Shown here: piece by piece, positions 4,526 to 53,375 of the stretch
Layout: each line of letters begins with the position of its first letter
How positions within the stretch are numbered: the first letter of the stretch is position 1
Assembly: GCF_002283365.1 (NCBI RefSeq)
Contig: NZ_MQWD01000001.1
Span: 3,669,951-3,733,950, forward strand
Length of the DNA: 64,000 nt
Direction of reading: 5' to 3'
Origin: Rubrivirga marina
Lineage (GTDB): Bacteria > Bacteroidota > Rhodothermia > Rhodothermales > Rubricoccaceae
The notes under the pieces: model-generated
Told to the model about the DNA's origin: nothing
Databases searched by the model: none
Seen by the model: only the letters and a program-made list of their open reading frames with translations
Position numbers and translations under genes: made by a program

Positions 4526-4551
4526 GGCCCGCCTCGGCGCCGAGGCGGGCC
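4526..4551. repeat. Perfect 26-bp palindrome of the CCTCGGCGCCGAGG family
   Basis: The palindrome begins 5 nt after the ssb stop codon and is perfectly self-complementary (arms GGCCCGCCTCGGC). It belongs to a family of palindromes found at several 3' ends in this window. It can form a very stable hairpin but is not followed by a T-tract. Confidence 0.7.
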
Positions 4552-8665: not shown

Positions 8666-10180
8666 GTGGACAAACCGCGCGACCACTGCGGCCTCTTCGG
8701 CGTGTACAACCACCCCGACGCGGCCCGGCTGACCTACTTCGGCCTCCACGCCCTCCAGCACCGCGGCCAGGAGTCGGCCGGCATCGTCACGAGCGTCTAC
8801 GACGAGGCGAAGGGCCGGAAGGTCATGCCCGTCCTGAAAGACTTCGGGCTCGTGCTCGACGTGTTCGACAACAAGGACGAGTTCGACGACACGCTCGTCG
8901 GCGACGCGGCCATCGGGCACACGCGGTACTCGACGTCGGGGAGCGCGACGAACCCGGCTAACATCCAGCCGTTCGTCGTCCACGACCGGGAGGGCCACTT
9001 CGCCCTCGCCCACAACGGCAACCTCTCGAACGCGCGCGCCATCCGCGATCAGCTCGTCGAGAAGGGGACGCTCTTCAACTCGTCGTCCGACACGGAGCTG
9101 ATCCTCCACCTCGCGGCGCAGAGCCGGGAGGCCGGGCCGGTCGCCCGGATGGTCGACGCGCTCCACCAGTGCCAGGGCGCGTTCTCGCTCGTCATCCTGA
9201 CCGACGACGCGCTCATCGCGGCCCGCGACCCCAACGGGTTCCGCCCGCTCGCCCTCGGGAAGCTCCCCCCCGCCGACGGCCGTGAACACCCGGCCTGGGT
9301 GGTGGCCTCCGAGACGTGCGCGTTCGACATCGTCGGGGCCGAGTACGTCCGCGACATCGAGCCCGGCGAGATCCTGGTCATCGACCGCGAGGGCATCCAG
9401 CGCGTGGGGACCGGCGGCGACTTCAACGGCGTGTGCATGCCGCGCAAGGACGGCGTGAGCCAGTGCGTCTTCGAGTACGTCTACTTCTCGCGGCCCGACT
9501 CGAAGATCTTCGGCGCGACCGTCGACAAGGTCCGTCGGAAGATGGGCAAGCGGCTCGCGCACGACGCGCCGGTCCCGCACATCGAGAAGGGGGACGGGAA
9601 GCGGCCCATCGTCATGTCCGTCCCGGACTCGTCGAACACGGCCGCCATCGGCTACGTGTCGGAGTCGAACAAGATGGGTCACCGGTGCAAGCTCGACATC
9701 GGCCTCATCCGCAACCACTACGTCGGGCGGACCTTCATCTCGCCGGGCCAGTCGACGCGGGAGCAGCGCGTCCGGACAAAGTTCAACCCGATCCGGGGCG
9801 TCCTCGAAGGGCGCGTCGTGGTGATGGTGGACGACTCGATCGTGCGCGGGACGACGGCGCGCCAACTCGTCAAGATGGTCCGCGAGGCCGGCGCGGCCGA
9901 GGTCCACTTCCGGTCGGCCAGCCCGCCGGTGCGGTGGCCGTGCTTCTACGGGATGGACTTCCCCTCCCGCGAGGAGCTCGCCGCCAACAAGCACGGGGCC
10001 GTCGACGCCATCGCCGAGTGGCTCGGCGTCGACTCGCTGGGCTACCTCTCGGTCGAGGGCATGCTGGACGCGGTCGAGGAGGCCCACGAGAGCCGCGATC
10101 GGTACTGCCACGCGTGCTTCTCGGGGACGTACCCGGTGCCGGTCGAGACGGGCGTGGTCAAGGAGGAGAACGACTGGTAG
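8666..10180 (+). CDS. purF: Amidophosphoribosyltransferase
   Basis: It catalyses the first committed step of purine synthesis, forming phosphoribosylamine from PRPP and glutamine. The 504 residues start with a short propeptide and the catalytic Cys8 in DHCGLFGVY (N-terminal nucleophile glutaminase), with LQHRGQESAGI next. The C-terminal phosphoribosyltransferase half has the PRPP loop VVMVDDSIVRGTT. Cys residues at SQCVFEY, RWPCFYG and the C-terminal YCHAC pair match the four [4Fe-4S] ligands of the Bacillus-type enzyme, so an oxygen-sensitive cluster is expected. The start is a GTG. It looks monocistronic. Confidence 0.96.
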   Translation: MDKPRDHCGLFGVYNHPDAARLTYFGLHALQHRGQESAGIVTSVYDEAKGRKVMPVLKDFGLVLDVFDNKDEFDDTLVGDAAIGHTRYSTSGSATNPANIQPFVVHDREGHFALAHNGNLSNARAIRDQLVEKGTLFNSSSDTELILHLAAQSREAGPVARMVDALHQCQGAFSLVILTDDALIAARDPNGFRPLALGKLPPADGREHPAWVVASETCAFDIVGAEYVRDIEPGEILVIDREGIQRVGTGGDFNGVCMPRKDGVSQCVFEYVYFSRPDSKIFGATVDKVRRKMGKRLAHDAPVPHIEKGDGKRPIVMSVPDSSNTAAIGYVSESNKMGHRCKLDIGLIRNHYVGRTFISPGQSTREQRVRTKFNPIRGVLEGRVVVMVDDSIVRGTTARQLVKMVREAGAAEVHFRSASPPVRWPCFYGMDFPSREELAANKHGAVDAIAEWLGVDSLGYLSVEGMLDAVEEAHESRDRYCHACFSGTYPVPVETGVVKEENDW

Positions 10181-10296: not shown

Positions 10297-12513
10297 ATGC
10301 TCCGCTCGCTCCTCCTCGCTGCCCTCGCCCTGGGGGCGCCCGCCGTCGCGCAGACGTCGGCCCCGGCCGACGACCTCCCGACCCCGGCGCCGACCGAGCG
10401 CGAGATCTGGGCCACGTTCACCGACGAGGCCCCGCGGATCGACGGTCACCTCGACGAGCTCCTGTGGCGACGGGTCGAGCCCGTGCGCCTGTTCACGCAG
10501 GTCTGGCCAGACACCGGCGCGCCTGCGACCGAAGAGACCGAGGCCTACGTCGCATACGACCACGACAACCTCTACGTGGCGTTCCGGATGCTCGACAGCG
10601 AGCCCCACCTCATCCGCGCCAAGAACCTCGAGCGCGGCGGGCGCAACGACCGCGACGACCACGCCTACATCGGCCTCGACACCTACCGCGACGGCCGCAA
10701 CGCGTACCTCTTCGAGATGAACGCGCTCGGCACCCAGGACGACGCGACGATCACCGACGAGGGCCTCACGATCGACAGCTTCTCGTGGGACGCCGTGTTC
10801 CGCTCCGAGACGGTCATCGACGAGACCGGCTGGACGATGGAGGTCGCCATCCCCTTCCGCCAGCTCCGCTTCCCCGAGGGCGACGACCTCGCGTTCGGCC
10901 TCATGCTCTCGCGGACGATCAACCGGAAGAACGAGCGCGTCCTGTGGCCCGAGATCGGACTCGACCGGGGCAGCAGCTTCGCCGCGCTCGCCACGGTCTC
11001 GCAGTACGGCGTCCTCCGCGGGCTGAAGGGGATCCGCCGCGGCCGGAACCTCGAGATCAAGCCCTACGGCATCACCGGCGCTCAGCAGACCCGCCCCGAC
11101 CTCGGCCTCCCGGACACCGAGGCCGAGGTCACCGCCGACGCCGGCGTAGACATCAAGTACGGCATCTCGTCCAACCTGACGATGGATCTCACGGTCAACA
11201 CCGACTTCGCGCAGGTCGAGGCCGACAACGTCCAGATCAACCTCAGCCGGTTCGGGCTGTTCTTCCCGGAGAAGCGGGAGTTCTTCCTCGAGCGCTCGGG
11301 CCTGTTCGAGCACGGCAACGCGCGCTCGACGCAGACCTTCTTCTCGCGCCGGATCGGGCTGACGGAAGACATCCTCGCCGGCGCCCGCGTGACGGGGCAG
11401 GTTGGGCCGTTCTCGGGCGGGGTCCTCAACATCGAGACGGGGCCCGGGATGGGCGACCTCTTCGGCACGCAGTCGACCAACAACACGGTCGCGCGGCTCC
11501 GGACGGACGTGCTCCCGCGCGCGACGGTCGGCGGGATCGTGACGAACCTCCAGACCAGCGACCGCTTCAACCGCGCCGCCGGCGTCGACGGGCAGGTCCG
11601 GTTCGGAGCGAACAGCCTCGTCGACGCGTGGGCGACGCAGGTGTGGGACTCCGACCCGGACCTGAACAGCGCGGCCGGCCACGCGCTCGTCCAGCTGGCG
11701 ACCGACGAGGTCGGGGCGAACGTGGCGTTCACGAGCGTGGGCTCGACGTACGCCCCCGCGCTCGGGTTCGTCCGCCGGCAGGACATGCGGCGCGTCGCCG
11801 GCGGCGCGTTCTACCGCCCGCTCGTGTCGATCCCCGGCCTCCCGATCGTCCGCCGGCTGGCGATCCAAACGGAGGGCGCGTACATCACGGGGCAGGACGG
11901 CGAGGTCCAGACGACCGAGCTCGGCGCCGAGGTCCGCGCCGACCTGTACCGCCGCGACGTGGTCGGGCTGAGCGTCAACCGCCAGTTCGAGCGGCTGGAG
12001 GTCCCATTCGCCATCCGCGAGGACGAGATCGTCGCGCCGGGCGACTACGCGTTCGTGCAGGCCGGGCTCCAGGGCGAGACCGACTCCAGCCGCCCCCTCT
12101 TCGCATCGGGCGGCGTCGCGACCGGCGGGTTCTTTGGCGGCACGCGGACTGACCTCGGTGTCAACGCGGGCTGGCGGCAGTCCCAGCACCTCGTGCTCGA
12201 GGGCGGCCTGAATCACTCGGTCATCGACCTCGGCAACGGGTCCTTCTCGGCGACGGTCGCCTCGCTCTCCGCGCTGACAGCCTTCAGCCGGACGCTCTTC
12301 GGGCGGACGCTCGTCCAGTACGACAACTTCTCGCAGGAGCTCCAGGCCAACGTCCGCCTCGACTGGATCCACACGCCCGGGAGCGACCTGTTCGTCGTGT
12401 TCAACACGGCCTACGGCCTCGAAGACGACGCCGACCCGTTCGACCCGCGCCGGACGCTGTCCTTCCGCGACCGCGTCGCCATCGTCAAGCTGACGTACCT
12501 CGTGCTGATCTGA
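10297..12513 (+). CDS. DUF5916 outer-membrane protein with CBM9-like domain
   Basis: The 738-residue product has a signal peptide (MLRSLLLAALALGAPAVAQ), then a CBM9-like beta-sandwich of about 170 residues (APRIDGHLDELLWRRVEPV, AYVAYDHDNLYVAFRM, WTMEVAIPFRQLRF) and a long C-terminal beta-strand region with the DUF5916 hallmark VNTDFAQVEADNVQINLSRF plus PEKREFFLERSGLF. The repeated amphipathic strands and the end YLVLI suggest an outer-membrane barrel. Such proteins are abundant in Bacteroidota and their role is unknown, possibly glycan binding or uptake. It stands alone between a promoter box and a palindrome. Confidence 0.85.
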   Translation: MLRSLLLAALALGAPAVAQTSAPADDLPTPAPTEREIWATFTDEAPRIDGHLDELLWRRVEPVRLFTQVWPDTGAPATEETEAYVAYDHDNLYVAFRMLDSEPHLIRAKNLERGGRNDRDDHAYIGLDTYRDGRNAYLFEMNALGTQDDATITDEGLTIDSFSWDAVFRSETVIDETGWTMEVAIPFRQLRFPEGDDLAFGLMLSRTINRKNERVLWPEIGLDRGSSFAALATVSQYGVLRGLKGIRRGRNLEIKPYGITGAQQTRPDLGLPDTEAEVTADAGVDIKYGISSNLTMDLTVNTDFAQVEADNVQINLSRFGLFFPEKREFFLERSGLFEHGNARSTQTFFSRRIGLTEDILAGARVTGQVGPFSGGVLNIETGPGMGDLFGTQSTNNTVARLRTDVLPRATVGGIVTNLQTSDRFNRAAGVDGQVRFGANSLVDAWATQVWDSDPDLNSAAGHALVQLATDEVGANVAFTSVGSTYAPALGFVRRQDMRRVAGGAFYRPLVSIPGLPIVRRLAIQTEGAYITGQDGEVQTTELGAEVRADLYRRDVVGLSVNRQFERLEVPFAIREDEIVAPGDYAFVQAGLQGETDSSRPLFASGGVATGGFFGGTRTDLGVNAGWRQSQHLVLEGGLNHSVIDLGNGSFSATVASLSALTAFSRTLFGRTLVQYDNFSQELQANVRLDWIHTPGSDLFVVFNTAYGLEDDADPFDPRRTLSFRDRVAIVKLTYLVLI

Positions 12514-12834
12514 CCCTGGCCGCCTCGGCGCCGAGGCGGAGGGGGCCTAGCCCGCTAACGGGGCGTCGGCGGCGACGATTCGTGCATGTGCCGGACGCGT
12601 GACAGGACGCACCAGGGAAACCCGTATCGAGAGTCGGAGGGAGTGACGACGGCCCGCGTCACGTCCCGCACTCCAGACCCGACGTCGAAACCTACGCTGC
12701 CGGGAGGGCCACTGTGGTGCGTCGCCGTGTCACCCGGGCGCGTCCTCCCTCCGTGATTGTCGCCGCAGCGGGCCAGAGGTCGCCGCGGCGGGCGGACGAA
12801 CGGTCCGCGCCCCTATCCCCACCTTCCTGGCATC
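12514..12834. other. Intergenic stretch without a gene
   Basis: This 321-nt gap holds the palindrome at 12520-12539, a weak -7-like box TACGCTGC near 12690, and a small hairpin GCGGAC-gaacg-GTCCGC just before the next gene. No convincing open reading frame with family similarity is visible on either strand. Confidence 0.5.
12520..12539. repeat. 20-bp palindrome CCGCCTCGGCGCCGAGGCGG
   Basis: A perfect palindrome 6 nt after the DUF5916 gene stop; another member of the dispersed family also found after ssb and at other 3' ends. Confidence 0.7.
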
Positions 12835-14544
12835 ATGACTCTTCATGGACAGACCACGGGCGCCTACGGCAGCCCGTTCCGCACCCAGACGCTCGCCGGC
12901 GCAACGCTGGTCTTCTACCCCCACGAGAAAGGCTCGTCCGACACGTCCCGCTGGGGCTGGACGTCTCTCGACGCCCTCCCCGATGGCGAACTCGGCCGAA
13001 CGACCGTCGCCGACGACGGGTCCTACGAGGTGGACCTCGACCTCGACGGGCGCATCGTCGTGGTCGCGGCCGAAGTGAAGCGGCTGACCTACGCCCCGGA
13101 CACCGACCGGACGGCCGTCGGACTCCTCGGGACGGGCGTGATCACCGGGTCCGAGGACGGCTCCCGGCTCGCCATCGCCCTCCCGCCTCGGGCGTACTGC
13201 GACCTCCTCCGCGCGCTCGACCTGTGGCTCGTCGCCGGCCATGTCATCGACTGCTCAAACGCCCAGACGCCGGCCGCCGGCGCCGACGTGACCGTCTTCG
13301 ACCGCGACCTCACGCAGGACGACACGCTCGGGACGGACACGACCGACGGGAGCGGCAGCTTCGAGGTCTTCTTCCCACGGGCCACGTTCCGCCAGATCCC
13401 AGCGCTTCCGCCGCCGTTCGACTCGATCCTCCCGCACGAGCTCATCGGTGGGCCCGACGTGTACTTCCGTGTCGAGCTCGGCGGCTCCGTCCTTCTGGAG
13501 GAGGACCCCGCGATGGGCCGGACGTCGGGTCGAGAGAACCGCCCGAACTGCACCTACGTCGAGCTCTGCGTCGAACCGCCCGACCTCCCGACCGACGCGT
13601 TCACGGTCTGGACGAGCATCGGCACCGTCCTCGTCCCCGACTCGGCCGGGCTCAACGACTTCGACGCCGACGGATTCGTCGACAGCGGCAAGCTCGCCTT
13701 CACCGGCCTCCTCGACTTCCACGGCGACGTGGCCCAGACGACGAGCGGCAACCCCACGCGCTATCGGTTCCAGGCGGCCGAGTGGGCCGACCTGGGGACG
13801 GCTCCGGCGTACCCTGCCGACTACGCACCGCTCACGTCGGCCGAGATCACGAGCAAGCCCTACGGCGCCCTCTTCGTCTCCACCGGCCCCGGCCCGTTCG
13901 ACTTCACGACGACGCCCCTCGCGCCCAACCCGGACGCGAACGGGTGGATCGACGTCAGCCAGGACCCCAACTTTTTCCGGCCGAGCACCTACCCGATGGT
14001 CCAGGTCGACACGCGGGTGCTCGTCCCGGCCATCGACACGTCGGGGGGCGAGACCGTCGGCGCGGGGGGCCCGGTGCCGGCACCCCAACAAGACCGGCCT
14101 CGGAAATGGTCGTTCGTCCTCGAGATGATCGACGGCGGGAGTGTGGTGAACCAGGCACCGGTCACGGTCCACCTCAACAACTCGGCGGCCTACGCACGGC
14201 TCAACCTCCAGGAGCTCCTGAGCAACGACTGCACGCCGATCACGAGGGCGGGCACGGACGTCACGGTCCACCCGATGTTCAGCATCGGGCACCCGTACCT
14301 CCGGACGTACCGGATCTGGATGCAGCGCCAGGGCGGCGCCATCGAGGACATCACACAGGACGACCACACCGCCCACACCCCCGTTTGGACCGACCCCGAT
14401 GGCGAGAGCGGCACGCTGACGCACACCTACGGCGACGCGGCCCAGTGCTCGTACCGCGTGTGGCTCTCCTTCGGCCGACGCCTCACGAACGGCTACGGCG
14501 GCCCGGGCGACGGATCGCTCCTGCGAACGTTCTGCACGCCGTAG
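12835..14544 (+). CDS. Large protein of unknown function with beta-sandwich-like segments
   Basis: The 569-residue product has no signal peptide or membrane segment. Its first quarter resembles transthyretin/carboxypeptidase-regulatory-like modules (GATLVFYPHEKG, VADDGSYEVDLDLDGRIVVV, and again PAAGADVTVFDRDLTQ with DGSGSFEVFFPRATF). The middle contains DFDADGFVDSGKLAFTGLLDFHGD, like a calcium-binding loop, and Cys residues are spaced through it (NCTYVELCVEPP, SNDCTPI, AQCSYRVW, RTFCTP). I do not recognise a family. The ATG at 12835 follows a C-rich leader typical of genes here. It is followed by a palindrome and another uncharacterised gene on the same strand. Confidence 0.6.
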   Translation: MTLHGQTTGAYGSPFRTQTLAGATLVFYPHEKGSSDTSRWGWTSLDALPDGELGRTTVADDGSYEVDLDLDGRIVVVAAEVKRLTYAPDTDRTAVGLLGTGVITGSEDGSRLAIALPPRAYCDLLRALDLWLVAGHVIDCSNAQTPAAGADVTVFDRDLTQDDTLGTDTTDGSGSFEVFFPRATFRQIPALPPPFDSILPHELIGGPDVYFRVELGGSVLLEEDPAMGRTSGRENRPNCTYVELCVEPPDLPTDAFTVWTSIGTVLVPDSAGLNDFDADGFVDSGKLAFTGLLDFHGDVAQTTSGNPTRYRFQAAEWADLGTAPAYPADYAPLTSAEITSKPYGALFVSTGPGPFDFTTTPLAPNPDANGWIDVSQDPNFFRPSTYPMVQVDTRVLVPAIDTSGGETVGAGGPVPAPQQDRPRKWSFVLEMIDGGSVVNQAPVTVHLNNSAAYARLNLQELLSNDCTPITRAGTDVTVHPMFSIGHPYLRTYRIWMQRQGGAIEDITQDDHTAHTPVWTDPDGESGTLTHTYGDAAQCSYRVWLSFGRRLTNGYGGPGDGSLLRTFCTP

Positions 14545-14553
14545 CCGACGGCC

Positions 14554-14581
14554 CCCTCCGCCTCGGCGCCGAGGCGGAGGG
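14554..14581. repeat. Perfect 28-bp palindrome of the CCTCGGCGCCGAGG family
   Basis: Arms CCCTCCGCCTCGGC and its complement meet without a loop, 9 nt after the preceding stop codon. It is the longest member of the family in this window. Confidence 0.7.
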
Positions 14582-14602
14582 AGTGGGACGGCGCGTGCAC
14601 CG

Positions 14603-14610
14603 TACGTTGC
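14603..14610 (+). promoter_or_regulatory. Possible -7 promoter box (TACGTTGC)
   Basis: This TAnnTTG-like box lies 20 nt upstream of the next ATG, so the following gene may have its own promoter despite sharing strand with its neighbour. Confidence 0.3.
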
Positions 14611-14630
14611 CGCCCCGTCCTCATCCTCCC

Positions 14631-15140
14631 ATGCCGGCACTCACGCTCACGCCCTCCGTGTACCACGGCACCCGTCGGCAGGGGGACTTCTCCTGGATGC
14701 TCGGCCAGGACGCGTGGTCCCGCTCGCTCTTCGTCTACAACGACAACGAGTCGCAGTCGGGGGTCTATCTGGACCAGGTCGACGCGGGCACCGTCGACCC
14801 CGCGTCGAGTGCGTGCCAGGCGGGGGCCGGCAACGGCGCCATCCGGCCGTACCAGTGTCTCACGCCACCCAGGGCGGCCGGCGTCCCGACGGGCCCTGGA
14901 TGGGCCGACCTCGACGACGGGAAGGCGGCGATCGACCGCGCGCTGGCCCACGTCCGCACGCTCTTGGAGACCGGCGACTACGACGAGGTGATCTACAGCG
15001 CCAAGAGTGCGTCGGAGCCGGGCGTCCTCGGATCGGGGACGTTCTCGCCTCCCAAGGACGTGCTGACGTACATCCCGAACGAGTTGAAGCGGATCGTGGA
15101 CGAGGTAAACGCCATCCGAGACCGCTCCTCTCTCGGCTAG
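14631..15140 (+). CDS. Uncharacterised protein, possibly macrodomain-like (DUF7831 type)
   Basis: The 169-residue soluble product reads TPSVYHGTRRQGDF, then SLFVYNDNESQSG, QAGAGNGAIRPY, AAGVPTGPGWADLDDGKAAI and a C-terminal helix TYIPNELKRIVDEV. The order FV(F/Y)xDN, a GxAxxAxR segment, GxPTxxGW and a final LGSGTF-helix recalls small macrodomain-like proteins known mainly from phages and plasmids. That link is from memory of the pattern and is not certain. Its stop codon overlaps the stop of the convergent HAD gene in a shared CTAG. No catalytic role can be assigned. Confidence 0.55.
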   Translation: MPALTLTPSVYHGTRRQGDFSWMLGQDAWSRSLFVYNDNESQSGVYLDQVDAGTVDPASSACQAGAGNGAIRPYQCLTPPRAAGVPTGPGWADLDDGKAAIDRALAHVRTLLETGDYDEVIYSAKSASEPGVLGSGTFSPPKDVLTYIPNELKRIVDEVNAIRDRSSLG

Positions 15141-30418: not shown

Positions 30419-30431
30419 GTCACGGCCCCTC

Positions 30432-30451
30432 CCGCCTCGGCACCGAGGCGG
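30432..30451. repeat. Palindrome CCGCCTCGGCACCGAGGCGG
   Basis: A near-perfect member of the dispersed palindrome family, 13 nt after the PfpI gene stop; only the centre differs from the consensus. Confidence 0.65.
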
Positions 30452-30523
30452 ACCGAGTCGCGCCCCGTTGGCTTCGGCCGGCGGGGCGCATTTCGTGAGG
30501 CCGCCACTTGAGATTACCATTCT

Positions 30524-32457: not shown

Positions 32458-33868
32458 CCGGGCCGAGGGCTGGCGGGCCACGCGTCCCGGAGTCCGGCTC
32501 GCGCTGGGCTACGCCGTCGTGTTCGCGCTGAGCGCGACAGCTCTCTTCGCCCTGACCTACGCCGCGCTCGGGTTCTTCCTCCACCGCCAGGACAGCGCCT
32601 TCCTGCGGTCCCAGCTCGACGCCGCGGAGGCCACGTACGCGCGCGATGGGTTGGCCGGCGTCCGCCGCCTCGCCGCCCGCCTCCAGGGCGACGACCGCGG
32701 CGAGGAGGTGTTGATCCGGATCGCCGACGCCGACAACGCGACCCGCCTGCTCGCCCTCCCGGACGCCTGGCTCCCCGGCGACTTCGCCCGCCTCGGCACC
32801 GAGGCGCCCCGGGTCGGCGGGCCCGTGGAGTTGTGGAACGAGCGGGAGGGCCAGTCGCTCGACTACTACACGCGGCGGCTCCCGGGCGGCGACGTGCTCC
32901 AGGTCGGGCTCAACTCCGACGAGCGGGACGACGTGCTGGAGGCGTTCCCGCGCGTCGTCGGCGTCGTGGCCGTCCCGCTCCTCCTGCTGGCCGTCTTTGG
33001 CGGGTGGCTGATGGCCGTCCGCGCGCTGCGGCCGGTCCGCCAGCTGATCGGCACGCTGGAGGCCATCGCCGACACCGGCGACGTCCGCGAGCGGGCGCCG
33101 GCGCCGGAGGCCCGCGGGGAATTCGCCGACCTGTTCGCGCTGTTCAACCGGATGCTCGACCGGATCGAGGGGCTCGTCGGCCGCCTCCGCGGGACGCTCG
33201 ACGACGTGGCCCACGACCTCCGGACGCCGCTGACGGCGCTCCGCGGGACGGCCGAGCTCGCGCTCCAGCAGGAGCGAGACGCCGAGGGCTATCGCCGCGC
33301 GCTCGGCCGGATCGTCGAGTCGGCCGAGGCGGCCGAGGCCACGCTCGCGACCGTCATGGAGGTGGCCGAGGCCGAGGCCGGCGCGCTCCGCCTCGACCGC
33401 ACCCCCGTCGACCTCGACGCCGTCGTGGCCGACGTCGCGGACCTCTTCGGGCTCGTGGCCGAGGAGAAGGGCGTGGCGCTCACCGTCGGCCCCGGCCGCG
33501 CGGGGACCGTCGACGGCGACCGCCAGCGGCTGCGGCGCGCGCTCGCCAACCTCGTCGACAACGCGGTCAAGTACACGCCGCCGGGAGAGCGGGTGGACAT
33601 CGAGGCCGGCGGGGCCCCCGGCGCGGCGTTGGTGACCGTCCGCGACACGGGCGTCGGGATCGCCCCGGACGAGCTCCCGCTCGTTTGGGACCGGCTCTAC
33701 CGGAGCGAGCGGACGCGCCACGAGCGCGGACTCGGACTCGGGCTCAGCCTCGCCCGTGCCATCGCCGAGGCGCACGGGGGACGACTCGACGCCGAGAGCA
33801 CGCTTGGCGGGGGATCGGCCTTCACGCTGCGCCTCCCGGTCGGCGCGGCCTCCCTGTCTAAAGTGTAA
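32438..33868 (+). CDS. Sensor histidine kinase
   Basis: The 476-residue membrane kinase has a helix near residues 18-42, a periplasmic domain of about 120 residues, a second helix (VVGVVAVPLLLLAVFGGWLMAV), a HAMP domain, the phosphoacceptor H-box DDVAHDLRTPLTALRG and an ATPase domain with N-box ALANLVDNAVKYTP, G1 VRDTGVGIAPDEL and G2 RGLGLGLSLARAI. It should phosphorylate the regulator encoded just upstream. The signal is unknown. Its last codons and stop lie inside the downstream 11-bp box array. Confidence 0.94.
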   Translation: MSSARPDRAEGWRATRPGVRLALGYAVVFALSATALFALTYAALGFFLHRQDSAFLRSQLDAAEATYARDGLAGVRRLAARLQGDDRGEEVLIRIADADNATRLLALPDAWLPGDFARLGTEAPRVGGPVELWNEREGQSLDYYTRRLPGGDVLQVGLNSDERDDVLEAFPRVVGVVAVPLLLLAVFGGWLMAVRALRPVRQLIGTLEAIADTGDVRERAPAPEARGEFADLFALFNRMLDRIEGLVGRLRGTLDDVAHDLRTPLTALRGTAELALQQERDAEGYRRALGRIVESAEAAEATLATVMEVAEAEAGALRLDRTPVDLDAVVADVADLFGLVAEEKGVALTVGPGRAGTVDGDRQRLRRALANLVDNAVKYTPPGERVDIEAGGAPGAALVTVRDTGVGIAPDELPLVWDRLYRSERTRHERGLGLGLSLARAIAEAHGGRLDAESTLGGGSAFTLRLPVGAASLSKV

Positions 33869-44824: not shown

Positions 44825-44830
44825 GTCCCT

Positions 44831-44850
44831 CCGCCTCGACGCCGAGGCGG
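44831..44850. repeat. Palindrome CCGCCTCGACGCCGAGGCGG
   Basis: One-mismatch member of the dispersed palindrome family, 6 nt after the membrane protein stop. Confidence 0.6.
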
Positions 44851-44864
44851 GCCGAAACGGAGAA

Positions 44865-49959: not shown

Positions 49960-49965
49960 CCCGGC

Positions 49966-49985
49966 CCGCCTCGGTGCCGAGGCGG
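49966..49985. repeat. Palindrome CCGCCTCGGTGCCGAGGCGG
   Basis: A member of the dispersed family between two convergent genes, one nt from the stop codon of the DUF3140 gene on the other strand. It can serve both as a 3' end hairpin. Confidence 0.6.
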
Positions 49986-49987
49986 AG

Positions 49988-52389: not shown

Positions 52390-53375
52390 AGCTCCCGCCC
52401 AAGCAGGGCGTAGCGCCGGATCGGCCGCCCGAGACGTCGGCTGATCCGGACCGAGTCGTTCGCCGTGTGCATCAGCGCGTGGATCGCCGACCGGAACCCT
52501 TTCGCGCGGGCGGCCTCTTGCACGGCCCGGACGAGCGTCCCACCGAGCCCCCGTCCCCGGGCCTCGGGCGCCACTGCGAGCGTCTTGACGATGATCGTCT
52601 CGACGGCCTCGCCACGGGCGGCCTGCGCGCCATCCGGGAACGCCAGCACGACGCCGACGGGCCAGCCCTCCGCCTCCGCGATGAGGACGAGGTCCGGGTC
52701 GACGCGCGCCACGAGCGGCCGGTAGAGCGCGAGGAAGCGGGCGACGTCGAGCGGCGCGTAGTACGGGTTCTCGGCGAACGCCTCGAGGAGCAGCGGGTGG
52801 AGCGCGCGGAGCTCGGCCTCGGCCTCCTCCGCGCGAAACGGCCGGAGCGTCACGCCTCCCTCCACCAGCGTGTCCACCTCGGCGCCGAGGCGGGCCGACT
52901 CGTCAGGCAGCGCGTCGACACGCGACGAGAGGTAGCGGGCGACGGGCGCGAAGCCGACGGCCCCGAACGCGGCGGCGACGACAGGCGGCGGCCACGGCTC
53001 GAGCGCGAACGGCGGCGACGGCTCTCCCCCGCCGGGCGCCGCGTCCGTCACGACGCGGTACCCGAACCACGTCGACCCGTCGATCGGCCCGACCACGTGG
53101 CCGACGCCCTCCGCTCGAAGCCGGTCGAGCGCCGCCTCCAGGAGCACGACCCCGTCCGCCTCGGTCGCCCAGTCGACGTGTCCAACCCGGCCGATCCGGA
53201 CGTTCTCGCCGTCGATGTGGAGGGGCTCGGTCCACCACAGCGCGCACGACGCGACGACCGTCTCGTCGCTCACGAGGCCGAGCACGTCGTCGGGCCGCGT
53301 CAGCGCGTACGCGGAGGGGTCCGGCGTTCCATCGAGGCCGGCGAGGTCGAGCCGTGCGTAGACGCCGGCGGTCAT
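52386..53375 (-). CDS. GNAT-family acyltransferase with extra N-terminal domain
   Basis: The 329-residue product has a C-terminal GNAT domain with the acyl-CoA-binding loop TLAVAPEARGRGLGGTLVRAVQEAA and HALMHTANDSVRISRRLG. The first about 165 residues form a second domain (VVASCALWWTEPLHIDGENVRIGRVG, VVLLEAALDRLRAEGVGHVVGPIDGSTWFGYR) that resembles a degenerate GNAT fold. It should transfer an acyl group to an amine or other acceptor. The gene overlaps both neighbours by 4 bp. The acceptor may be an intermediate of this operon, which is inference. Confidence 0.83.
   Translation of the reverse strand: MTAGVYARLDLAGLDGTPDPSAYALTRPDDVLGLVSDETVVASCALWWTEPLHIDGENVRIGRVGHVDWATEADGVVLLEAALDRLRAEGVGHVVGPIDGSTWFGYRVVTDAAPGGGEPSPPFALEPWPPPVVAAAFGAVGFAPVARYLSSRVDALPDESARLGAEVDTLVEGGVTLRPFRAEEAEAELRALHPLLLEAFAENPYYAPLDVARFLALYRPLVARVDPDLVLIAEAEGWPVGVVLAFPDGAQAARGEAVETIIVKTLAVAPEARGRGLGGTLVRAVQEAARAKGFRSAIHALMHTANDSVRISRRLGRPIRRYALLGREL

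Follow-up and report, generated by a model that had tools for sequence, protein, structure and literature searches.

Within the 64,000 nucleotides of Rubrivirga marina DNA analysed here (the window), two adjacent genes belong to no familiar family, and the locus raises the question of what they encode and whether they act as a pair. A sequence-only reading had described open reading frames of 569 and 169 residues (ORF1 and ORF2, Table 1), had compared the second with phage macrodomain-like proteins, and had proposed that the two form an accessory or defence-related pair.

Table 1. Features of the ORF1-ORF2 locus, in window coordinates.
Feature	Position	Strand	Remark
ORF1	12835..14544	+	569 aa; beta-sandwich protein, no export signal seen; family about 620 aa
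Transthyretin/carboxypeptidase-regulatory-like module of ORF1 (residues 133-178)	13231..13368	+	PF13620, below cut-off
Perfect GC-rich palindrome between ORF1 and ORF2	14557..14578	.	Terminator-like, without T run
ORF2	14631..15140	+	169 aa; macrodomain-like protein, unnamed family
GDFSWM (ORF2 residues 18-23)	14682..14699	+	5 of 6 positions invariant, 12 distinct members including ORF2
FVYNDN (ORF2 residues 34-39)	14730..14747	+	End of predicted strand
Loop-1-like glycine-rich stretch C62-Y74	14814..14852	+	Family consensus CxxGGGNAxIRPY
PPRAAGVPTG (ORF2 residues 79-88)	14865..14894	+	Alignment
Loop-2-like LGSGTF (ORF2 residues 133-138)	15027..15044	+	Family consensus LGTGIF

Two genuine genes

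Both ORF1 and ORF2 are genuine genes. The GC content at codon positions 1, 2 and 3 was 0.66, 0.52 and 0.92 in ORF1 and 0.64, 0.51 and 0.92 in ORF2, a bias that resembles that of local real genes such as purF (0.67, 0.43 and 0.98), and protein-level relatives were found for each. Together with the ORF calls, these results bear out the two frames as originally described.

The genes lie 86 bp apart, and the palindrome between them is of a type repeated across the window (33 matches at three or fewer mismatches, with 1.95 expected). A terminator search found no classical terminator. A possible promoter of its own had been suggested for ORF2 and was not upheld, as no sigma-70-like site was found between 12400 and 15500 with a consensus that may not suit this phylum. 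The upstream word TACGYTGCCG matches the window exactly at just two places, one upstream of ORF1 and one upstream of ORF2; it was rejected as a common signal because its distances are very different and the count of near-matches is within chance.

ORF1 is a beta-sandwich protein of a separate family and an apparently unrelated neighbour of ORF2. Its proposed carboxypeptidase-regulatory-like modules proved weak in ORF1 itself, where PF13620 remained below the cut-off in a profile search (E 0.0016, 19.2 bits against 32.3), and clearer in its relatives, as TTR-52 scored above cut-off in two of the four scanned (L094 and L101). ORF1 and its relatives appear to share one module with the transthyretin-like and carboxypeptidase regulatory-like proteins of PF01060 and PF13620 but differ from them in family length and in the lack of a visible hydrophobic export signal. 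In a crude hydropathy test, the maximum over 15 residues within the first 45 was 0.54 in ORF1, none of 11 relatives exceeded 1.39, and no hydrophobic N-terminal export signal was seen in any of these proteins, as had been noted for ORF1 from its sequence. No relatives of ORF1 were found in viral contigs and no solved structure matched it (best E 0.8).

Genomic context and the question of a pair

Adjacency on the same strand is compatible with a functional pair, and neither gene reads as part of the metabolism of its neighbours, which appear metabolic in a simple gene call that itself missed ORF2. However, ORF1 and ORF2 do not co-occur. Of 296 genomes from the phylum, 20 carried ORF1-type genes, and among these 20 only the window genome also gave an ORF2 match in a single-sequence search; G219, the phylum's second genome with ORF2, gave no ORF1 match. 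Furthermore, PADLOC returned no match in ORF1, in ORF2 or in a scan of 10 genes lying between 2987 and 24133, and no recurrent neighbour of the ORF2 family was found in the short flanks compared. The lack of co-occurrence, the intervening palindrome, the metabolic neighbours and the absence of a recurrent neighbour in those flanks leave a defence pair unsupported. The pair reading, although it rightly set both genes apart from the surrounding metabolism, is already largely refuted, and we consider it very improbable. As for a DarT-type toxin next to ORF2, as in DarTG-type toxin-antitoxin systems, the PADLOC scan of 10 nearby genes gave no match and the flanks of relatives no recurrent neighbour.

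A rare family of small bacterial proteins

ORF2 had no acceptable match in Pfam, PHROG, NCBIfam or PADLOC. Twelve relatives, 31-52% identical, were gathered: a DNA-pattern scan of public genomes yielded ten, a further genome one and a virus contig one. Those from the pattern scan belong to Acidobacteria, Actinobacteria, Rhodobacteraceae, Rhodothermia and other groups, and G219 was, besides the window genome, the other carrier in the phylum. The family is rare and patchily distributed among bacteria. The 11 members of alignment A2 (ORF2 and ten others) are 152-169 aa long and therefore single-domain by length.

Several candidates were discarded. L003 (E 6.4e-4) was a chance match among homoserine-kinase-like and threonine-synthase-like frames and is excluded from all counts, and a Halalkalicoccus plasmid piece reached E 0.6. 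Pattern scans with ORF2 alone gave 83 stretches in genome_contigs and 6 in viral_contigs, and a scan with alignment A1 gave 55 in viral_contigs; no relative was among them. None of 44 viral pattern loci (L005-L048) was convincing by tblastn at E up to 10, and the best of them, L030 (E 0.005, 31.9% over 91 residues), was dropped; a stricter pattern gave no viral matches. PHROG matches to the family were too weak (phrog_26956, E 0.13; phrog_7087, E 0.0081 and confined to one member), and further, weaker ones were discounted.

Relatives in phages and other viruses

When the predicted structures of ORF2 and of a second family sequence, L049, were compared with viral models, crAss-like phage domains or DUF7831 proteins came first in both, with a probability of 0.99-1.00 yet E values of 1e-3 to 1e-2. 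Comparison by hhalign of 12 family sequences with 15 crAss-type DUF7831 domains gave P 3.6e-5 and a score of 36.3, where 100 column shuffles reached no more than 22.1. With Seuss gp109 and L143 added, P was 2e-7 and the probability 93.7 in a comparison that was not shuffled. The local alignment spans the C-terminal half only. Gp109 of Caulobacter phage Seuss, a DUF7831 protein, resembles the ORF2 family in its FxDN, GGxA, GIxT and GTG motifs, and the order FNDN, GGxA, GIxT, GTG is common to both. No match to PF25176, the Pfam entry for DUF7831, was found at E 1 in the 12 members scanned (11 of A2 and the virus contig L059, with L143 left out). The significant profile-profile match, alongside the best viral structural matches, shows that the ORF2 family and DUF7831 share detectable ancestry as distant relatives, in keeping with the likeness to phage proteins first noticed.

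DUF7831 is carried by the crAss-like phages cr130_1 and cr131_1, by Seuss (gp109) and by Rhizobium phage RHph_N34; among the chromosomes of the phylum it appeared in one of 198 genomes, below cut-off. In the two crAss-like records examined, the domain lies within proteins of 1401 and 5801 residues, whereas each bacterial member is a gene of its own whose product has the motifs GDFxWM and AxGIPTG. Literature searches found nothing on DUF7831 and nothing linking a macrodomain with a crAss-like phage; what else they brought up was general work on phages or ADP-ribosylation.

In L059, OGFr_N (E 4.4e-20) and, after it, an ORF2-family domain (tblastn E 3e-15) lie in a single protein. This fusion is the point of contact with OGFr_N proteins (PF04664), but neither ORF2 nor the other ten A2 members matched OGFr_N. 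A literature search found nothing joining the opioid growth factor receptor and NCLDV.

These viral connections allow ORF2 to be viewed as a remnant of a phage or of some other mobile element, and the lack of a match in three same-genus genomes and five genomes from other genera of the taxonomic family (some incomplete) would agree with such an origin. However, no phage or mobility genes were seen in a reading, rather than a profile search, of the surrounding genes; the composition is host-like (GC 0.692, window 0.726), the frame is intact, and searches of 50,697 phage and 72,556 plasmid records found no relative at E <= 0.01. We regard a mobile origin as unlikely.

Comparison with macrodomains

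Confident AlphaFold models were obtained for ORF2 (pLDDT 94.1, pTM 0.90) and, with a different lead sequence, for L049 (pLDDT 93.3, pTM 0.89). For the ORF2 model, the best-ranked solved structures were six entries of alphavirus nsP3 macrodomains (Z 5.8-5.4, 115-118 residues, 3.2-3.6 Å); Poa1p followed at Z 4.1, the value of the first unrelated row. For the L049 model, the top solved structure was the DarG macrodomain (Z 6.1, 111 residues, 3.4 Å), with PARP14 macro 1 at Z 5.0, MACROD2 at Z 4.8 and KaiC, which is unrelated, at Z 5.1. The predicted fold resembles macrodomains (alphavirus nsP3, DarG, MACROD2 and PARP14) across almost the entire domain, at Z 4.5-6.1, as the sequence-only reading anticipated; the Z values are modest, since the search tool trusts matches at Z 8 and those at Z 5-6 fall below, and a fold missing from the match lists is not thereby excluded.

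A resemblance at this level could reflect nothing more than a common three-layer alpha/beta architecture, with the family and DUF7831 forming a separate nucleotide- or sugar-binding fold for another ligand. KaiC, RadA, FtsY and CobU rows follow close below the macrodomains, and a plain Foldseek search against the PDB gave no significant match. The Macro sequence signal is at best marginal: PF01661 had no match at E 1 in ORF2 or the other ten A2 members, and hhalign of the family against Pfam Macro gave a probability of 0.1-1.1% and a best P of 0.047, with a score equalled in one of 100 shuffles. On the other hand, distinct macrodomain subfamilies top each of the two models, the conserved motifs seem to follow the order expected for a macrodomain ligand site, and no P-loop motif was noticed by eye in the alignment. 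We find a separate fold rather doubtful.

Conserved motifs and the putative ligand site

Among 12 distinct members including ORF2, 26 ORF2 positions are invariant. The family motifs GDFxWM, FxFNDN, GGGNAxIRP, AxGIPTG and LGxGIF appear to run in the order of macrodomain ligand-site motifs, by a mapping that uses motif order only, without superposition. GDFSWM would be positioned like the macrodomain GDI motif, and FVYNDN like NAAN. FVYNDN corresponds to FGDN of Seuss gp109, and N37, D38 and N39 are invariant among the members compared. ORF2 departs from the family consensus in loop 1 (GAGNG against GGGNA) and loop 2 (GSGTF against GTGIF). Its strictly conserved polar residues are D19, N37, D38, N39, N68, R72, T87, D102 and S123, and strict conservation of polar residues is more typical of enzymes.

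This conservation speaks against a different possibility, tentative in our view, that ORF2 is a non-catalytic macrodomain-like reader, which would bind an ADP-ribose-type ligand or a modified protein and have no hydrolase activity. Compared to macrodomains, the family has no Pfam or convincing profile match and carries a different loop 1, and the literal NAAN is missing, FNDN standing at what would be the equivalent place. In PMC11490716, NAAN is named as an active-site feature and the catalytic versions of loop 1 are GGGxDx3H, HGGG and GxGxC; the loop 1 of the ORF2 family is none of those given there. The loss of catalytic features in GDAP2-like macrodomains, described in the same paper, provides a precedent for such a reader.

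Proposed function and implications

With somewhat better than even confidence, we propose that ORF2 is a stand-alone cytosolic macrodomain-like protein related to DUF7831, most likely a small binder of ADP-ribose-type nucleotides. The predicted macrodomain-like alpha/beta/alpha fold would place the GDF, NDN, GGGN and LGTGIF motifs around a cleft formed by strand ends and loops, where the conserved D19, N39 and loop-1 residues would bind, and possibly hydrolyse, an ADP-ribosyl bond or some derivative of ADP-ribose. As a rare, unnamed family with a macrodomain look and phage kin, it makes ORF2 a good candidate for a new ADP-ribose-handling protein.

A broader and more speculative reading, to which we give little more than a minor share of belief, is that the family is an unnamed branch of the macrodomain superfamily present in scattered bacteria, in crAss-like and other phages (DUF7831) and probably in eukaryotic viruses (the OGFr_N fusion). 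Its members might erase or read an ADP-ribose-derived mark or signal through a new active site (GDFxWM / FNDN / GGGNAxIRP), possibly protecting, as stand-alone proteins, against toxins that ADP-ribosylate or immune signals derived from NAD. How macrodomains and NADARs undo ADP-ribosylation is under active study in the fields of toxin immunity and phage conflict (PMC11833690, PMC7824862). If our proposal is right, an undescribed bacterial branch, tied to the phage DUF7831, would join the macrodomain-like proteins, and these small, confidently modelled bacterial proteins would offer a means of testing the function of both the ORF2 family and DUF7831.

Genomic setting

Both reading frames named in the sequence-only reading, ORF1 (569 residues) and ORF2 (169 residues), were found on the plus strand, and their codon-position GC pattern is like that of the real genes of the window, which lies in a genome of 4.98 Mb. 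The 86-bp gap between them contains a perfect palindrome of a type recurring in the window, where GC-rich palindromes near CCGCCTCGGCGCCGAGGCGG had 33 matches with three or fewer mismatches against 1.95 expected. The recurrent palindrome may be a terminator lacking the T run, or else a small interspersed repeat.

Features of the window and of related records (flanking genes named from translations read by eye, without profile match)
Feature	Position	Strand	Remark
purF	8666-10180		5' of ORF1 and ORF2
Exported-looking protein	ends at 12513		5' of ORF1 and ORF2
ORF1	12835-14544	+	569 residues
ORF2	14631-15140	+	169 residues
HAD-type phosphatase		opposite	downstream of ORF2
Gamma-glutamyltransferase-like gene		opposite	downstream of ORF2
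Sodium/solute-symporter-like gene			beyond the two preceding genes
Palindrome	12519-12540		shortly 3' of stop codon (12513)
Palindrome	14557-14578		shortly 3' of stop codon (14544)
Palindrome, further examples	2316-2337, 4528-4549, 30431-30452, 32787-32808, 44830-44851, 49965-49986, 52873-52894
Viral-contig locus L059	1441-2373		310 residues
Phage cr130_1 protein, locus L117	13777-31182	minus	5801 residues
L144, genome G464, contig 76	about 33055-33159		short second match

ORF1 family and the proposed pairing

Of 296 genomes sampled from the phylum, 20 (from 10 of 140 genera) hold a member of the ORF1 family, whose proteins have about 620 residues; one Salinibacter ruber plasmid has it too. 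Most of the 16 relatives read begin with a non-hydrophobic N-terminus of the FKGxLxGxxCxxC type; ORF1 itself lacks both cysteines. A transthyretin/carboxypeptidase-regulatory-like module was present in all four relatives scanned, above the cut-off in two. For ORF1 we infer no more than a cytosolic beta-sandwich protein, possibly scaffold-like. No neighbour recurred among 16 ORF1 loci, save two clusters each common to two genera.

The suggestion that ORF1 and ORF2 form a defence pair found no support. Among the 20 ORF1-holding genomes, only that of the window had an ORF2 match, as counted by single-sequence search for ORF2 and from the genome handles set in that search, and G219, the other ORF2 holder in the phylum sample, had no ORF1 match. 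PADLOC gave no match in ORF1 or ORF2, nor in the 10 genes of the 2987-24133 stretch to which it was applied, and the palindrome lies in the gap.

Distribution of the ORF2 family

At E 1, ORF2 had no match in Pfam, NCBIfam or PADLOC and one in PHROG (E 0.13), and it had no sequence match among solved structures (best E 0.54 with the single protein and 0.32 with a profile). Two of 395 genomes sampled from the phylum have ORF2, namely G219 and that of the window, and one further match was due to chance; the same two were the holders among 114 genomes at order level, and three same-genus and five other same-family genomes had no match. Neither ORF2 holder has a match to the Pfam Macro family (PF01661), which is matched in 9 of 18 other related genomes, numbers too small to carry meaning.

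Database scans of genome and viral contigs with ORF2 alone yielded no relatives. A degenerate DNA pattern derived from the first two ORF2-type sequences gave 10 loci in the genome contigs, all coding for relatives with 36-52% identity to ORF2; one of them, L054, is the same record as G219, with an identical protein. By record title, the hosts are Aridibacter, another Acidobacteria bacterium, two Actinobacteria, Mycobacterium, Nanopelagicales, Rhodobacteraceae, Paracoccaceae, Rhodothermia and an uncultured bacterium. Phylum samples of three such hosts held the gene in 1 of 398, 1 of 276 and 2 of 277 genomes, the centre genome counted each time, and the sole new holder supplied locus L143. The family is thus rare and patchy. 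Phage and plasmid records contained no relative, one plasmid piece reaching E 0.6. L144, some 5 kb away from the intact gene at locus L049, matches the C-terminal part of the family and is perhaps a duplicate remnant.

The frames of nine pattern loci, of L143 and L059 and of a 14-kb part of the window, 12 loci in total, were compared all against all, with L052 omitted as near-identical to L050. Nothing was common except the ORF2-type gene and its shadow frames, within the near neighbours covered by the 3.4 to 8 kb of the non-window loci. The ORF2-type gene appears to stand alone.

In the viral contigs, one of 161 pattern stretches, L059, codes for an ORF2 relative (tblastn E 3e-15), a single protein in which OGFr_N (E 4.4e-20) precedes the ORF2-type domain. 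This architecture suggests a virus of eukaryotes, and the protein hints at exchange between bacteria and such viruses.

Predicted fold and links to phage proteins

AlphaFold models led by two different sequences, ORF2 and L049, were confident (pLDDT 94.1 and 93.3). Foldseek alone found no significant match in the PDB; its highest-ranked chains were then aligned with VIA-align. Alphavirus nsP3 macrodomains ranked first for ORF2 (3gqo_C, Z 5.8, 3.4 A, 117 residues), and the DarG macrodomain for L049 (5m3i_A, Z 6.1, 3.4 A, 111 residues). The macrodomain hint of the sequence-only reading was a good one. A coincidental likeness is a possible alternative. VIA-align cautions that a Z below 8 may reflect just a common arrangement. 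With ORF2, yeast Poa1p (Z 4.1) equalled the first unrelated row, and with L049 an unrelated KaiC chain (Z 5.1) stood ahead of PARP14 (5.0) and MACROD2 (4.8). The macrodomain resemblance recurred in both models and with several subfamilies, and for this reason we take it seriously. From sequence profiles, the signal is at most a hint: comparison of the family by hhalign with 12 macrodomain sequences from related genomes gave probabilities of 0.1-1.1% (best P 0.047), and the best score was equalled in 1 of 100 shuffles.

Among viral models, ORF2 best matched a protein of crAss-like phage cr130_1 (E 1.8e-3, prob 1.00), then a cr131_1 protein named DUF7831 (E 9.5e-3, prob 0.99), whose domain matches PF25176 (E 7e-10). 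The L049 model matched DUF7831 proteins of Caulobacter phage Seuss (E 1.1e-3) and Rhizobium phage RHph_N34 (E 7.1e-3). By hhalign, 12 family sequences against 15 distinct crAss-type domains scored 36.3 (P 3.6e-5, probability 71.5) versus at most 22.1 in 100 column shuffles; the shuffles apply to this smaller set, and addition of L143 and Seuss gp109 gave P 2e-7 and a probability of 93.7. The local alignment spans the C-terminal half only. Direct search with the family HMM gave cr131_1 only 2.4 bits and missed Seuss gp109 at E 1. Seuss gp109 alone, picked after the structure search had named it, exceeded 200 shuffles narrowly (hhalign score 24.2 versus at most 23.2). It pairs FGDNE with FNDNE, GGQA with GGNA, PNAIGIAT with PRAAGIPT and GTG with GTG, FGDN/GGQA being the phage pattern.

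In cr130_1, the protein that carries the DUF7831 domain close to its end is annotated DprA-like and has in-frame stop codons, perhaps translated as Gln in such phages; in cr131_1 the domain is part of a 1401-residue protein.

Proposed function of ORF2

Across 12 distinct members, ORF2 counted, 26 positions of ORF2 are invariant. Gly, Asn, Asp, Pro and Thr account for many of these, and the conserved order is GDFxWM, FxFNDN, GGGNAxIRP, AxGIPTG, S123 and LGxGIF. Macrodomain sites are described as having a NAAN motif, a catalytic loop 1 rich in glycine, a loop 2 that binds diphosphate and an arene in the active site (PMC11490716). In the ORF2 family, FNDN would fall at NAAN, GGGN at loop 1 and LGTGIF at loop 2. 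GDF would occupy the place of the GDI motif, which binds adenine in macrodomains. From this placement follows our proposal that ORF2 may bind an ADP-ribose-type ligand and might also be a hydrolase, its active site differing from those described; a non-catalytic reader is a possible alternative. The ORF2 family is uncharacterised and merits a biochemical test.
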